A stretch of 64,000 nt of DNA from Planctomycetota bacterium (lineage in GTDB: Bacteria > Planctomycetota > UBA8108 > JACQVS01), in the NCBI GenBank assembly GCA_028280485.1, contig JANQLS010000090.1, positions 1 through 64,000 on the forward strand. The letters are read 5' to 3'. Positions within the stretch are counted from its first letter, which is position 1; every line of letters begins with the position of its first letter. Shown here one piece after another: positions 38,789-48,332 of the stretch. A program made the translations under genes and the position numbers. Under the pieces are notes generated by a model. It saw nothing but the letters and a program-made list of their open reading frames with translations. It made no database searches and had not been told where the DNA came from.

Positions 38789-40363
38789 ATGGCATATAAA
38801 GACTTATTCAATACTTTAGTTTCAAAACTTCCTAAGACCGACACCGCCAACGAGGCTGGGGGCCAAGCTTACCGCTTAGCTCCAAAACACGCTCTGGCGC
38901 AGTACGCAGTGACCGGTTGTATGAACTCAACCTTCTACGCATCGGCTCAATTGCAATTAGATCGAGTCTTGGCATTGTGTAACGAAATCGAACCCGAGTT
39001 CATCGCGAAGGTGGCGCTCTACGCTCGAAATCGTGGGTACATGAAAGACTTGCCCGCGTTGCTGGTCGCATACTTGGCTTCAAAGCAACCTGGCCTTATG
39101 GCTGAGGTTTTCGATCGAGTGATCGACAACCCCAAAATGCTTCGAAACTTCGTTCAAATTGTTCGAAGTGGAGTCACTGGGCGTCGAAGTTTGGGGTCGC
39201 TGCCCAAGCGAATGATTCTTCAATGGTTGGAGAAGCGTTCTGACGAGCAACTCTTTATTGGCTCAGTAGGAAACACTCCTTCTTTGGCGGACATCATCAA
39301 GATGGTTCACCCCAAGCCAAAAACCAAGTCTCGTGAAGCATTGTTCGGATACCTCTTAGGTCGGAGCTACGACGCTGAGGCTCTTCCTCAAGTGGTTCGA
39401 GATTTTGAGGCTTACAAGAATGCTGAAGATCGAAGAATGCTTGAGACTCCCGATGTCCCTTTCCAATTCTTAACCAGCTTAGATCTGGCGGATTGGGAAT
39501 GGCGTCAAATCGCTCGCTACGCTCCTTGGCAGATGACTCGAATGAACTTAAACGCGTTTGCTTCGCACAATGTGTTTAAGGACCTTGAGATCACCAAGTT
39601 GGTGGCTGATCGATTGCGCGATTCTGAAAAGGTTCGTCGAGCCAAAGTGTTCCCTTACCAACTTTTGGTCGCAAGTCAAAGCGCGCGTTCGGATGTTCCT
39701 TATGCGATTCGTTCAGCATTGGAAGATGCGTTGGAGGTCGCCTTGGAGAATGTTCCTGAGATCAAAGGAAAGGTTTATGTTTTCCTCGATATCTCTGGAT
39801 CGATGCATTCGCCCGTTACTGGGTATCGCCGTGGATCGACAACTGCTGTTCGTTGTATTGACGTTGCCTCATTATTGGCTTCGGCACTCGTAAAGAAAAA
39901 TCCTCAAACGGAGGTCATCCCTTTCGAGTCTCGTGCTTACGAGTTCAAGTTGGATGTGACCGAACGGGTGCTCGTCAACGCTCAACGCTTAGCGAGCTTG
40001 CCTTGTGGCGGAACCAACTGTTCAGCTCCGTTGGCGCTTCTTAACCGAAGAAAAGATCAGGGTGACTTAGTGATCTACGTCTCCGATAACGAGTCTTGGA
40101 TCGATTCTCCTTACTACGGTCACTTCGGTGGAAAGGCGACTCGAACTCTTCAAGAGTGGAGTTTGTTCAAGCGTCGAAGCCCTGAGGCAAAAATGATCTG
40201 TATCGACATTCAACCCTACGCCAACACTCAAGCTAAGGAACGAGAAGACATCATCAACGTCGGTGGCTTCTCGGATCAAGTGTTTAACTTGATCGCCGAA
40301 GTGGCGAGTGGAAACGCAACTGAGAATCATTGGGTGAACCTTATTGATGCCCAAAGGCTCTGA
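38789..40363 (+). CDS. rsr: Ro60/TROVE-domain RNA-binding protein with C-terminal VWA (MIDAS) domain
   Basis: 524 aa; HEAT-like TROVE region (VALYARNRGYMKDLPALLVAYLA, RNFVQIVRSGVTGRRSLG..PKRMILQWL), VWA DISGSMHSPVTG. Confidence 0.93.
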   Translation: MAYKDLFNTLVSKLPKTDTANEAGGQAYRLAPKHALAQYAVTGCMNSTFYASAQLQLDRVLALCNEIEPEFIAKVALYARNRGYMKDLPALLVAYLASKQPGLMAEVFDRVIDNPKMLRNFVQIVRSGVTGRRSLGSLPKRMILQWLEKRSDEQLFIGSVGNTPSLADIIKMVHPKPKTKSREALFGYLLGRSYDAEALPQVVRDFEAYKNAEDRRMLETPDVPFQFLTSLDLADWEWRQIARYAPWQMTRMNLNAFASHNVFKDLEITKLVADRLRDSEKVRRAKVFPYQLLVASQSARSDVPYAIRSALEDALEVALENVPEIKGKVYVFLDISGSMHSPVTGYRRGSTTAVRCIDVASLLASALVKKNPQTEVIPFESRAYEFKLDVTERVLVNAQRLASLPCGGTNCSAPLALLNRRKDQGDLVIYVSDNESWIDSPYYGHFGGKATRTLQEWSLFKRRSPEAKMICIDIQPYANTQAKEREDIINVGGFSDQVFNLIAEVASGNATENHWVNLIDAQRL

Positions 40364-40372
40364 GTTGCAAAA

Positions 40373-40592
40373 GTTGAGACAAGCCCCAGTGGGCTTGCCT
40401 CAACCTCTTCAGCAAATCTGCGATTTGCTTTCGCTCCGCTAAATGTAGGCTTTTAGCATACATTCGCGGTCGAGTTGATCCTAACTCGGAAAAGCTTCGA
40501 TGTGCCGAAGCTTTGTAGCAAAGATCCGAAGTGGTTTCACTTCGGTAAATGAGCTCTTGAGCCGTTTGACCTATTTTCAAGAGCTCGTTTTT
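40373..40592 (+). repeat. Array of consecutive hairpins in the Ro60 3' region, ending in a terminator
   Basis: Hairpins 40373-40404, 40411-40429, 40442-40464, 40471-40488, 40491-40514, 40526-40545, 40551-40586, last followed by GTTTTT. Confidence 0.85.
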
Positions 40593-40833
40593 CTAAACCT
40601 TATTCCTCGCTGGTTTGGGGGGTTTGAATCGCTGAACACCTTATACCCAAGCTCCCTGGCCAGCAATTTTTTTGATTTGAACCTTATAGACGTAGAAGTT
40701 TGCCCTTTTGAAAGATGTGCGGTGAAGTAAAAGAGGATTAGAAGTAGAAGCTTGTTAAAAGATGCGAAGTAAGAACTTATAGAGTTGAAGCGCGGTGAAG
40801 TAGAAGTTTAAGACAACAAGAAGTAATAGTTTT

Positions 40834-40919
40834 GTTGATGATCGAGTCGAATGCCCTAGGGACTACATTGAAATGAAAAGCCAAACGTCTCTAGACCGTT
40901 TGTCGACTCGATCTTCAAC
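40834..40919 (+). ncRNA. Y-RNA-like ncRNA, copy 1 (short, no tRNA-like module)
   Basis: Lower stem GTTGAtGATCGAGTCGA (40834-40850)/TCGACTCGATCtTCAAC (40903-40919); AUGCC internal loop; upper stem CTAGGGAC (40856)/GTCTCTAG (40887). Confidence 0.75.
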
Positions 40920-40980
40920 TTTCCCAGATCACATTGGGTGGTTGAAGAAAAAGTGGGTACTTGGGGCAACGCAAAGAATT

Positions 40981-41123
40981 GTGACGAATGCTGATGGAAC
41001 TACATGGATATTGACCCGTAGGTTGTGAGTTCGAGTCTCACCAGCTGCACCATAGGTGGCTGTAGCTCAAAGGTAGAGCAACGTAATGTAATTGTTTCAT
41101 TTAACCCTTGTCGTCACGTTTTT
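40981..41123 (+). ncRNA. Y-RNA-like ncRNA, copy 2, with permuted tRNA-like module
   Basis: Lower stem GTGACGA (40981)/TCGTCAC (41111) then GTTTTT; upper stem GATGGAAC (40993)/GTTTCATT (41094) and TACAT/ATGTA; T-arm GTGAG-TTCGAGT-CTCAC (41025-41041), acceptor CAGCTGC (41042)/GTGGCTG (41056), D-arm GCTC-AAAGGTA-GAGC (41065-41079). Confidence 0.88.
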
Positions 41124-41137
41124 ATATTCGTAATGAA

Positions 41138-41461
41138 TCATCCCCACATTGAAGGAAACAACAACCAGAAATGGATTAGGAAGTGACCCCAGAGAACCGC
41201 ACCAGCGCTCAGGCTTTTCGATTTAAATAATGCAATAAAGCCAAAGATGATTCCCACAGTTGCATCGAGCAAGATAAAGGAAAAGCCAATGAGGGCGCCT
41301 AAATAAGCGATAGGTGTAGGAAATATTCCGAGGAGAATTAATCCAAATCCAATCTGGGTAATAAGGCTTAAAATTAATGCGATGGCTGAGATCCAAAAGC
41401 AAACTCTCCCTTTCTTAGGATCTTTGTGGTGTGTCAGGGTTTGAAATATCGGATCAGCCAT
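41138..41461 (-). CDS. Small multi-TM membrane protein, family member 1
   Basis: 107 aa; CFWISAIALIL...SKSLSAGAVLWGHFLIHFW; shares layout with ten further ORFs in 41.8-49.7 kb. Confidence 0.7.
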   Translation of the reverse strand: MADPIFQTLTHHKDPKKGRVCFWISAIALILSLITQIGFGLILLGIFPTPIAYLGALIGFSFILLDATVGIIFGFIALFKSKSLSAGAVLWGHFLIHFWLLFPSMWG

Positions 41462-41498
41462 GATCTTAAGAATGAATTATTTATGTTATTCAATGGTA

Positions 41499-41577
41499 GA
41501 TTGAAACGAATGCCTTAGGGACTACATGCCCTCGACTTCTAATCGAACTGTCTCTAAACTTCCTTGTCGTTTCGATC
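41499..41577 (+). ncRNA. Y-RNA-like ncRNA, copy 3 (short)
   Basis: Lower stem GATTGAAACGA (41499)/TCGTTTCGATC (41567); AUGCC loop; upper stem TTAGGGAC (41515)/GTCTCTAA (41550). Confidence 0.75.
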
Positions 41578-41608
41578 TGCCGTGATATTTCTTAGTTTTC
41601 GTTTCGGT

Positions 41609-41732
41609 ACTCGCGAATGCCAGTGGGAATACATGGTAGAGGCGGATTTCTCCGCCGGGGTTCGAGGCCCCAACTCACATTGGAAAAACTCTGATTGAGA
41701 AAAATCTCACTACCCTTTGTCGCGAGTTTTTT
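41609..41732 (+). ncRNA. Y-RNA-like ncRNA, copy 4 (long, with T-arm-like hairpin)
   Basis: Lower stem ACTCGCGA (41609)/TCGCGAGT (41720) then TTTTTT; upper stem AGTGGGA (41622)/TCTCACT (41705); hairpin GGCGGA-TTTC-TCCGCC and T-arm-like GGGG-TTCGAGG-CCCC (41657-41671). Confidence 0.8.
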
Positions 41733-41843
41733 AGGGCTGATGAAAACCCTAAATTCATAACCGTTTTTAAGTCAGTTATTTCACGATAAATTAGAAAATT
41801 CTGCTGGGATTTTTGCTCAAGTTTCCTGTTCTAATATTTTAAC

Positions 41844-42233
41844 TTAACGGTAAACCCACCACTCAATAAGTAGAAATAGAAGTGCAATAAGAGAAGCCCA
41901 GATCCACCAAAATTGAATAGCAACTTGGGCGATACAGAGATACAGCATCGATTTTTTTCGTGTTCGCATATGACAAATCATCCCCGATGATAATCCAATC
42001 GCTGCGATTATCATGGCGAGGATTATTCCAATTGCATAGCCGTCTTTTGGATGATAGCGAGGGTCTTCAATTTGAACGTTTAATATTGCCAAAAAAATAA
42101 TAGTTCCATGAGTAAATATTCCGAAAGCTAACGAGGCAATGCTAACCCAAAAAGGAATCGTTATATTTCTGGGAATGCGGTGATCTGTTTCAATCGGTGG
42201 GATTGAATTATAGTCTTCTGGTGGTTCCGTCAT
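41844..42233 (-). CDS. Small multi-TM membrane protein, family member 2
   Basis: 129 aa; IPFWVSIASLAFGIFTHG. Confidence 0.7.
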   Translation of the reverse strand: MTEPPEDYNSIPPIETDHRIPRNITIPFWVSIASLAFGIFTHGTIIFLAILNVQIEDPRYHPKDGYAIGIILAMIIAAIGLSSGMICHMRTRKKSMLYLCIAQVAIQFWWIWASLIALLFLLIEWWVYR

Positions 42234-42274
42234 TAACCGAAAAAATTCACTCGCTGTTTGCCACTTAATTCATT

Positions 42275-42628
42275 TTATAAGTTCCCCATAGCGTAAAGAA
42301 TCGATAATGGGAATCCAACAACAAATAGATTTCCAAACCAAATTAGGAAGCCTTTTAAATCGCCTGCTCTAACCCAATAGATCGTGCTGGATATAAAGCC
42401 GACCAAGGTGATTACTGAGATGATCATCAATCCATAAACGTAAGCTGCTATGGCATCCCAGCCCTTAATAATTCCAGTGGAAATAGTGACTACCAACAAA
42501 ATTTCCAAGAATAGATTCAGGCCGATGGCAACGATGGTAATCCAAAACGATTTTGGGGCGTGGAAGGACTCTTTCTTTGGTAGTTCATTGATGATCGGAG
42601 TGGGAGAGTTGTAGTCGCTGGTGTTCAT
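42275..42628 (-). CDS. Small multi-TM membrane protein, family member 3
   Basis: 117 aa; KSFWITIVAIGLNL. Confidence 0.7.
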   Translation of the reverse strand: MNTSDYNSPTPIINELPKKESFHAPKSFWITIVAIGLNLFLEILLVVTISTGIIKGWDAIAAYVYGLMIISVITLVGFISSTIYWVRAGDLKGFLIWFGNLFVVGFPLSILYAMGNL

Positions 42629-42640
42629 GGTCTACTACTT

Positions 42641-43015
42641 TCAAATAGAACTCAGGCCAAGAGAGACGATCGTGACGAAAGCAGGCACGACCATACTTAA
42701 GATAAATACAAAGCCACTGGTGAGAGAGCGCGATTTTATTAAGAAAATAAAACTTGTGATGAAGCCTATGATTGCTGAGCCCAGGGCTGCAAAGAGGAAA
42801 AAGGGAAGCCCAAAAGTGCTCACTACTAATAAGACCATTGAGCTTTGACTGAATATCATTGCGACCAATAGGAAGGCCAGGATCAGAAAGTTCAAGAAGA
42901 TCGCCCAAAGGGATTGAGCTAAGTACTTTCCGTACTTTGAATCTGACTTCGGGATGCATCCGCTGAGAATTTCAGTGATTGAAAGACGATCTTGATTCTT
43001 CATTGATAATCTCAA
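42641..43015 (-). CDS. Small multi-TM membrane protein, family member 4
   Basis: 124 aa; SLWAIFLNFLIL...KSRSLTSGFVFILSMVVPAFV. Overlapping frame 42585..42959 considered less likely. Confidence 0.65.
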   Translation of the reverse strand: MRLSMKNQDRLSITEILSGCIPKSDSKYGKYLAQSLWAIFLNFLILAFLLVAMIFSQSSMVLLVVSTFGLPFFLFAALGSAIIGFITSFIFLIKSRSLTSGFVFILSMVVPAFVTIVSLGLSSI

Positions 43016-43063
43016 TTCTTTTAAACTTAAAATTGCAGTTAATGTCGAGAGTTCTACGCATCT

Positions 43064-43489
43064 TTAAAAATTCTGTATGATAAACGGAATTGCGGGGGCG
43101 AGGAAATTTAGAGCGAATACTGCGTAGCCCAAGGCGGACTCACGCAGGGCTTGAAACATTGCACTGGCGAGAAATCCCAAACCTGTAATTGCGGCCAAAG
43201 GTAAGTACATACGAAAATAATTGATTAATACCTCAACTGATTGAAATAGATTTGCATTCTTCCAATCAGAGATGAAGTTATGTGATAAAGAGCTTGAGAA
43301 AACAAAGCTCTCAACACAGAAGGCGATTGCAATAAAAAGATAGATGCCGGCGAAGAAGTCAGTTCTAAGATTTGTTTTCCTCTCACTGCTAAGTGAATCG
43401 GATAAGAGCTTGCTCCTTTTTAAGCGTAGTTGTTCTCTTTGATTTGCTAAGGCTGAGATTGCTTTCATGTTTTGCATTTGAGACTCCAT
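43064..43489 (-). CDS. Small multi-TM membrane protein, family member 5
   Basis: 141 aa; ESALGYAVFALNFLAPAIPFI. Confidence 0.7.
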   Translation of the reverse strand: MESQMQNMKAISALANQREQLRLKRSKLLSDSLSSERKTNLRTDFFAGIYLFIAIAFCVESFVFSSSLSHNFISDWKNANLFQSVEVLINYFRMYLPLAAITGLGFLASAMFQALRESALGYAVFALNFLAPAIPFIIQNF

Positions 43490-43510
43490 TCATTCGAAAA
43501 TCTTGAGCGA

Positions 43511-43924
43511 TCAGAAATACTTGATGGCGACGAAGGGAAGAAAAGGCGCGATTGTATTCAAGGTGAGAGCGATTCCTCCCAGCAATGATCCCTTTCTGGC
43601 TAAGGTGAACGCGCTAATGACGACGCCGATTCCAGTCAATAGCCCCACTCCAATCAAGCCAATGCCGCCCCAGATCATGAGCGCAAGGTAACCGTAGCTA
43701 GAAGTAGCTTCCCACTCGTCCAAGAATTTCATAAGTAAAAAACTGGTACAAGCCAAGTTGAAAAAGAAGTAGAGCGTTGCTGGAGTCAAAAATGCGATAT
43801 CGGCGATTTTGGACTCTTTAGGCTCTTTGATATTCCTTGGAATAATGCTGTGCTCTGCTAATTCATTCATGGTTTGTTCTTTTTTTTCTGAGTTGAGTTT
43901 TTTTATTAAATCGAAGAGCTTCAT
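43511..43924 (-). CDS. Small multi-TM membrane protein, family member 6
   Basis: 137 aa; KGSLLGGIALTLNTIAPFLPFV. Confidence 0.7.
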   Translation of the reverse strand: MKLFDLIKKLNSEKKEQTMNELAEHSIIPRNIKEPKESKIADIAFLTPATLYFFFNLACTSFLLMKFLDEWEATSSYGYLALMIWGGIGLIGVGLLTGIGVVISAFTLARKGSLLGGIALTLNTIAPFLPFVAIKYF

Positions 43925-43933
43925 TTTTTTACC

Positions 43934-44353
43934 TCAGGCGAATTGGAGGTAGAGGGGAATCGCGGGAGTGGCTATGTTAAAGATCACACCGAGGATCCCC
44001 TTAAAGGTGCCTGAGCCTGCGCTTTCCCTAGTCGCCGTTATCATTCCCCAGCACATAATTCCGACAATCGGAATGAGTAAGAAGGCGTGATAGAGCATTA
44101 CCCAAAGTATTTCGATTCCCCATGCAGCGTCTGCTCTCGCGTTGAAGTTTAGAATCAACAACCAGCTGAAAACCATATTCATCCCGCCGATCATCATGCC
44201 GGGAATCATTGCGCTGAGGGCAGCAGCTTCAGCTTCTTGCTTAGCTCCGTTTAAGTATTCAGTTCTTTCGTTATTAGCGATTTTGTTCATGACGACTCTC
44301 CATTCATTCAAGGTTTTTAGGACAGCGATCTCTAAAAGCAAGGTAGGTGCCAA
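43934..44353 (-). CDS. Small multi-TM membrane protein, family member 7
   Basis: 139 aa; SGTFKGILGVIFNIATPAIPLYLQ. Confidence 0.7.
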   Translation of the reverse strand: MAPTLLLEIAVLKTLNEWRVVMNKIANNERTEYLNGAKQEAEAAALSAMIPGMMIGGMNMVFSWLLILNFNARADAAWGIEILWVMLYHAFLLIPIVGIMCWGMITATRESAGSGTFKGILGVIFNIATPAIPLYLQFA

Positions 44354-47978: not shown

Positions 47979-48332
47979 CTATAGCATCGAAAGTAGAACA
48001 GCCCAAACACATACCGATATATTTGCGATAAACAAAATCCAAGAAGCTTTTCTTTTGCACTCAAACCAAGCTCGAACTGCGGCGGTCATGCCTGCGATTC
48101 CGATAATTGGCATGCATAAGAAGCCATAAAAAACTAGGTGATCTAATATTGGAATTAAAGATCCCATAAATTTCTCAAATTCAGGATAGTAATTGAGGGC
48201 GATGCAGAAGGATAGGAATAATAAGTTCACAAAAAAAGCGATGCCTGAAGCCCAAAAGCTAATTGAAAGAGTTCGGCTGTCACTCCTAAGAATCTCGGTA
48301 TCAATTGGGAGAAGGCTGTTCTTTCTTTGCAT
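47979..48332 (-). CDS. Small multi-TM membrane protein, family member 8
   Basis: 117 aa; N-term MQRKNSLLPIDTEILRSDSRTLSISFWASGIAF. Confidence 0.75.
   Translation of the reverse strand: MQRKNSLLPIDTEILRSDSRTLSISFWASGIAFFVNLLFLSFCIALNYYPEFEKFMGSLIPILDHLVFYGFLCMPIIGIAGMTAAVRAWFECKRKASWILFIANISVCVWAVLLSML

Follow-up and report, generated by a model that had tools for sequence, protein, structure and literature searches.

The gene at 38789-40363 of the window (the whole stretch of DNA that was analysed, 64,000 nt) is rsr, which encodes a bacterial Ro60 ortholog with a TROVE and a Ro60 vWA domain. Its product matches the Pfam families PF25045 (E 2e-12) and PF05731 (E 3e-7), as well as the PDB entries 2nvo (Rsr, E 1e-14) and 9l5y (TROVE protein, E 4e-20). 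The gene is single copy: searching the 9.37 Mb genome gave a single match. The occurrence of Ro60 is patchy: among 29 genomes from the same class 3 carry rsr, and it was absent from all nine other genomes of the same family or order that were searched. Downstream of rsr and on the same strand lie four Y RNA genes, grouped in two pairs with a small minus-strand gene between them. The features are listed below, with scores against models of three Y RNA classes (S, M and L) that are described further on.

38789..40363, plus strand: rsr, bacterial Ro60 ortholog (Pfam and PDB matches)
40547..40592, plus strand: terminator-like hairpin of 15 bp followed by GTTTTT (fold of 40380-40620, z -6.0), with a putative role in termination
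40834..40919, plus strand: Y RNA copy 1, class S (stem only); S model 58.8 bits, M 43.2, L 45.8; fold z -4.65
40975..41123, plus strand: Y RNA copy 2, class L (YrlA-like), ending in GTTTTT; L model 116.4 bits (E 2e-29), S 43.9, M 55.2
41138..41461, minus strand: small membrane protein ORF of 107 aa between the Y RNA pairs, 3 TM-like segments
41496..41580, plus strand: Y RNA copy 3, class S (stem only); S model 50.2 bits, M 36.4, L 49.8
41606..41732 (about 41730 by the closing stem), plus strand: Y RNA copy 4, class M, ending in TTTTTT; M model 52.6 bits (E 1e-11), L 41.0, S below threshold

All four copies carry the Ro60-binding base stem of bacterial Y RNAs, CGAAUG / UUGUCG. The head motif CGAATGCNNNNGGRANTACAT has exact matches at these four copies only within the 64 kb, and a scan for the head together with the closing stem gave 4 matches in the window versus 0.05 per shuffled window; no shuffled window had two such matches within 1 kb. 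Chance hairpins as the source of the four copies were rejected by the motif scan, by alignment shuffles and by the shuffled-window scan. The covariance models place the copies at 40841-40912, 40978-41120, 41500-41576 and 41607-41729. Copies 1 and 3 are without any T- or D-arm. Copy 2 has a T-arm (GTGAG-TTCGAGT-CTCAC), a 7-bp acceptor-like stem (CAGCTGC/GTGGCTG) and a D-arm (GCTC..GAGC), in the permuted order of YrlA, while in copy 4, which lacks a D-arm, a closed acceptor-like hairpin comes after the T-arm (GGGG-TTCGAGG-CCCC). With the middle part shuffled, a T-arm arose by chance in 7/2000 cases for copy 4 and 17/2000 for copy 2. U-runs follow copy 2 (GTTTTT, 41118-41123) and copy 4 (TTTTTT, 41727-41732), and none follow copies 1 and 3. 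No match in the window reached an Rfam gathering score, and ARAGORN found no tRNA in it.

The spacer is about 61-65 nt between copies 1 and 2 and about 30 nt between copies 3 and 4, and some 380 nt plus the minus-strand gene separate the two pairs. The ORF at 41138-41461 is probably real, as it resembles the neighbouring small membrane ORF at 41844-42233 (E 9e-5). An earlier note on this DNA had described four Y RNAs beside Ro60, arranged as two short-then-long pairs around a minus-strand membrane gene, with copies 1 and 3 stem only, copy 2 tRNA-like and copy 4 bearing a T-arm. Its coordinates, lengths, spacers and U-runs proved correct, the order being S, L, S, M, and our inspection of the T- and D-arms agrees with it. 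Furthermore, the ORF belongs to a run of at least seven small minus-strand membrane proteins of 107-141 aa (41138-44353 and 47979-48332), some of them distantly alike; no Pfam family was found for the three tested, that of 41138-41461 included.

A search of the own 9.37 Mb genome with the S and L models found no further Y RNAs. Matches of the L model on another contig (C199) were rejected as Y RNAs, being junctions inside a tRNA array. This array, at about 4-7 kb of the contig (L090-L094), holds at least 19 tRNA genes, including a gene with the anticodon CUA, and lies among ordinary metabolic genes; its tRNA-to-tRNA junctions mimic the permuted tRNA-like domain of YrlA.

The distance from rsr to copy 1 is about 470 nt. 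The 3' region of rsr (40380-40592) contains about seven strong hairpins in a row, matching no Rfam family, of which the last is the terminator-like hairpin; a consensus terminator scan with loops of up to 8 did not list it. The gap, with its hairpin row and terminator-like hairpin, makes it probable that the Y RNAs are not coupled to rsr here. Directly before copy 1 (40715-40830) are purine-rich degenerate repeats around GAAGTARAAG. A scan for sigma-70 promoters returned one match where 2.4 were expected, none above chance, and thus lends no support to the two separate transcripts that the pairs would form.

For comparison, 84 other rsr loci were assembled (80 from a contig search and 4 from the genomes of relatives). 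A loose stem scan of these loci gave 199 matches on the rsr strand versus 20 on the opposite strand, and a stricter scan 180 versus 5. The Y RNAs at rsr loci fall into three recurrent classes. Class S is YrlB-like and stem only, with a core of about 47-75 nt and the inner stem GGGAC/GUCUC. Class L has a T-arm, a 7-bp acceptor-like stem and a D-arm, with the inner stem GGAACUACAU ... GUUUC, and corresponds to YrlA (RF02553). In class M a T-arm is followed by a closed acceptor-like hairpin without a D-arm; its inner stem, GGGA[G/A/U]UACAUGG ... CUCUC, is recognised by a usually non-C letter before UACA and a CUCUC-type closing strand.

Alignments (A1-A3) and models (R1 for S, R2 for M, R3 for L) were built without the window. 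Both the covariation score of the pairings and the cells paired exceeded 500 of 500 shuffles in each class, although such shuffles leave relatedness in; when the structures were slid along the alignment only 33-54% of cells were paired, versus 94.8% (L), 89.0% (S) and 82.1% (M) in place. Class S showed 99 double-changed cells versus a shuffled mean of 36.7. The acceptor-like helix 4 of class M is the weakest, with 60% of cells paired as aligned, in part through a register that varies by a base. A classifier using the inner stem only reached 70% class accuracy across loci, versus 45% with labels shuffled within loci, which indicates that stem and top domain are co-inherited. A Y RNA whose M score exceeded both its L and its S score by at least 10 bits was present in 44 of 85 sources (two of which, L078 and L082, are apparently one genome), 24 of them outside the training set. 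The Y RNA matches of L082, which comes from a genome of the window's class, have the same bit scores as those of L078, a Planctomycetes genome, which points to Planctomycetota as the phylum of the window. Class S, assigned from features, was present in 64 of 83 loci. Some proteobacterial short Y RNAs (L051, L056, L061, L063, L071) have an M-type inner stem, GGGAGUACAU, without a T-arm, so that short RNAs may have more than one origin.

Copies 1 and 3 have the stem-only build and the inner stem, GGGACUACAU ... GUCUC, of class S; the L match of copy 3, only 0.4 bits below S, skips the domain. Neither matched the YrlB family RF02565 at E values up to 1. Copy 2 scores 54.7 bits (E 3e-11) against RF02553, below the gathering score of 69, and is YrlA-like by architecture. 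Copy 4 has the inner stem GGGAAUACAU ... AUCUCAC and the architecture of class M. It is a weak member, since most score 60-90 bits and its acceptor-like helix is weak and contains mismatches; it could be a decayed L RNA. Against RF02553 it reaches 30.7 bits, lacks the D-arm of YrlA and prefers the M model. The stem-only classifier called copy 2 L, copy 3 S and copy 4 M, and found copy 1 ambiguous.

In pairwise comparisons of 294 Y RNAs, copies 1 and 3 were mutual best matches, whereas copies 2 and 4 ranked 166th and 97th of 293 to each other. The best matches of copy 2 were L RNAs of other genomes, and those of copy 4 were M RNAs of other genomes. Judged by sequence, the long members thus belong to different ancient classes, and a duplication of the short (S) gene is likely.

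Layouts were compared over 98 clusters, in which classes were assigned from simple sequence features rather than covariance-model scores and related genomes are not independent. The RNA after a short one was long in 56 of 70 cases, where 43 would be expected under random order, and a short RNA came first in the cluster in 48 of 70 (22 expected). Short-then-long order is therefore a general rule among relatives. The median spacer between Y RNAs is 23 nt, which argues for common precursors. From the rsr stop to the first Y RNA the median is 62 nt, with at most 100 nt in 53 of 76 loci. A 3' U-run followed 41% of the long RNAs in last position and 24% of those further inside a cluster; for short RNAs the corresponding shares were 25% and 10%, and for random positions 2%. 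The claim that only long members have terminators thus holds in the window, but in relatives the U-run depends on both position and class, and the difference between short and long RNAs is a tendency that is partly positional.

The short-long-short-long order occurred in 1 of the 98 clusters, that of the window itself. None of the relatives has the doubled layout; the nine genomes of the same family or order, which lack rsr, offer no synteny comparison. The earlier note had suggested duplication of a bicistronic short/long unit, with the membrane gene lying between the two copies. On such a model the unit was duplicated once, and copy 4 would have started as a copy 2 and lost the D-arm by decay. 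Such an event would account for the short-long order and terminal U-run shared by both pairs, for the mutual best match of copies 1 and 3, and for copy 4 being only a weak M. Against it speak the low mutual ranks of the long copies, the M RNAs of other genomes as nearest kin of copy 4, its inner stem, which is of M type when taken by itself, the wide spread of class M and the absence of the doubled layout from the relatives. With long members in different classes the pairs would not be copies of one duplicated unit, and the close kinship of copies 1 and 3 combined with the distance between copies 2 and 4 makes duplication of the short gene likely and that of the short-long unit unlikely.

A whole Y cluster from another lineage, added by lateral transfer or recombination beside a resident one, would fit the patchy occurrence of Ro60, and also the distance between the pairs, which is far from the usual spacer. 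The two S copies are closer to each other than to any other S RNA, however, which favours duplication inside the genome, and we find transfer improbable too, if slightly less so than the copying of a whole unit. Quite implausible, in our judgement, is the view that only copy 2, and perhaps copy 4, is functional and that the short copies are remnants or parts of the leaders of the long RNAs. The short copies do lack a U-run of their own, and the published function is known for YrlA, but class S shows strong compensatory change, is found at most of the loci and includes the Rfam family YrlB. The reading that we consider probable is that one Ro60/Rsr has four Y RNA partners with a division of labour, made from an S-L and an S-M precursor, and that the present layout reflects an S gene that was duplicated and two older long classes that were regrouped.

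At twelve rsr loci, mostly from Acidobacteriota, rsr and its Y RNAs are preceded on the same strand by an array of some 11-32 tRNA genes covering most amino acids (L005, L015, L018, L032, L034, L036, L037, L038, L040, L041, L049 and L073, the array being upstream of rsr); a further locus, L029, has 9 tRNAs. Y RNAs also occur inside tRNA arrays (L034:2158, L073:4289, L018:3022, L005:3531, L036:4872, L029:5489). Three whole genomes checked for such arrays have 58-62 tRNA genes each, many scattered over other contigs, so that the rsr-linked array resembles a second set of tRNAs, kept in reserve and linked to Ro60 and Y RNA. At L040 (7872-7941), ARAGORN reported a tRNA-Ile within a Y RNA of class M, and Y RNAs can thus be misannotated as tRNAs.

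Two entries filed under phage preparations, OR851267.1 (L095) and OR845705.1 (L096), contain an enterobacterial chromosome region (rsr-rtcB) with the order rsr end, YrlB, YrlA, third Y RNA, rtcB. The YrlB scores 105.5 bits against RF02565 and is best as S; the YrlA scores 70.9 bits against RF02553 and is best as L. The third RNA, of class M, occupies 921-1037 in L095 and 1074-1190 in L096, between yrlA and rtcB.

This RNA scores 51.2 bits as M, 32.3 as L and not at all as S, folds alone into the M shape, reaches only 31.7 bits against RF02553 and has no Rfam family of its own. The rtcB is 83.6% identical to that of E. coli, and the Y region was not found in the E. coli genomes or plasmids searched; the source is therefore probably another enterobacterium. 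The pattern was likewise not found in the viral contigs searched. No RNA database searched has class M as its own family. Descriptions of the Salmonella operon (PMC7790460, PMC9879122) give yrlB and yrlA only; the founding papers on bacterial Y RNAs lie outside this comparison, which leaves the novelty of class M uncertain. As a tentative proposal, which we rate a little short of an even chance, class M may be a third ancient and undescribed class of bacterial Y RNA, extending from planctomycetes and acidobacteria to the enterobacterial repair operon, with one Ro60 using graded tRNA mimics (none, half, full) to select different tRNA-recognising partners.

Rsr is known to bind the lower stem of Y RNAs, and the tRNA-like domain of YrlA binds PNPase and is a substrate of the modifying enzymes TruB and DusA. 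In Deinococcus radiodurans Rsr, a Y RNA and PNPase form RYPER, which degrades structured RNA (PMC8394870, PMC4726728). At the present locus, the two bicistronic precursors would be co-transcribed and processed, and their products bound by a single Rsr, for which the stems of four interchangeable partners would compete. The common base stem, 5' CGAAUG ... UUGUCG 3', would bind Ro60, and the classes differ in their tops: nothing in S, a T-arm with an acceptor minihelix in M, and a circularly permuted tRNA-like body (T-arm, acceptor stem, D-arm) in L. By analogy with RYPER, L may link Rsr to PNPase, or to some other partner that recognises tRNA, so that structured RNA is degraded. Rsr occupied by S would have no such tether, and M, offering only the T-arm/acceptor face, may be recognised by fewer tRNA-binding proteins. 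It is plausible from these architectures that effector specificity differs by class. The pair layout would derive from S-gene duplication and regrouping of the older long classes rather than from copying of a whole S-long unit.

The published work compared has bacterial Ro60 acting through a single tRNA-mimicking Y RNA. If Ro60 can draw in each genome on short, half-tRNA and full tRNA mimics in ordered clusters, the purpose of the mimicry becomes testable class by class. The class models also make it possible to annotate Y RNAs for which Rfam has a weak listing or none, including the third enterobacterial RNA.

Copy 2 resembles YrlA (RF02553) in its Ro60-binding stem, inner stem, permuted T-arm, acceptor stem and D-arm, and location beside rsr. 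It differs in a longer link before the T-arm and its score below gathering, and in the window a short Y RNA and the stretch with the terminator-like hairpin lie between it and rsr. Copies 1 and 3 are, like YrlB (RF02565), short, stem only and ahead of a longer Y RNA, and the reference YrlB itself scores best as S; they do not match RF02565, whose Rfam model is narrow. RYPER, with Rsr and a tRNA-like Y RNA, is the likely mode of copy 2 by analogy, whereas copies 1, 3 and 4 have no full tRNA-like domain. The enterobacterial operon (OR851267.1) has the order S, L, M, and its third RNA shares the architecture of copy 4; it has one S and one cluster followed by rtcB, whereas the window has two S, two clusters and no rtcB seen adjoining. 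Expressed in enterobacterial terms, the set in the window comprises copies 1 and 3 as YrlB-like RNAs, copy 2 as YrlA and copy 4 as the M RNA.
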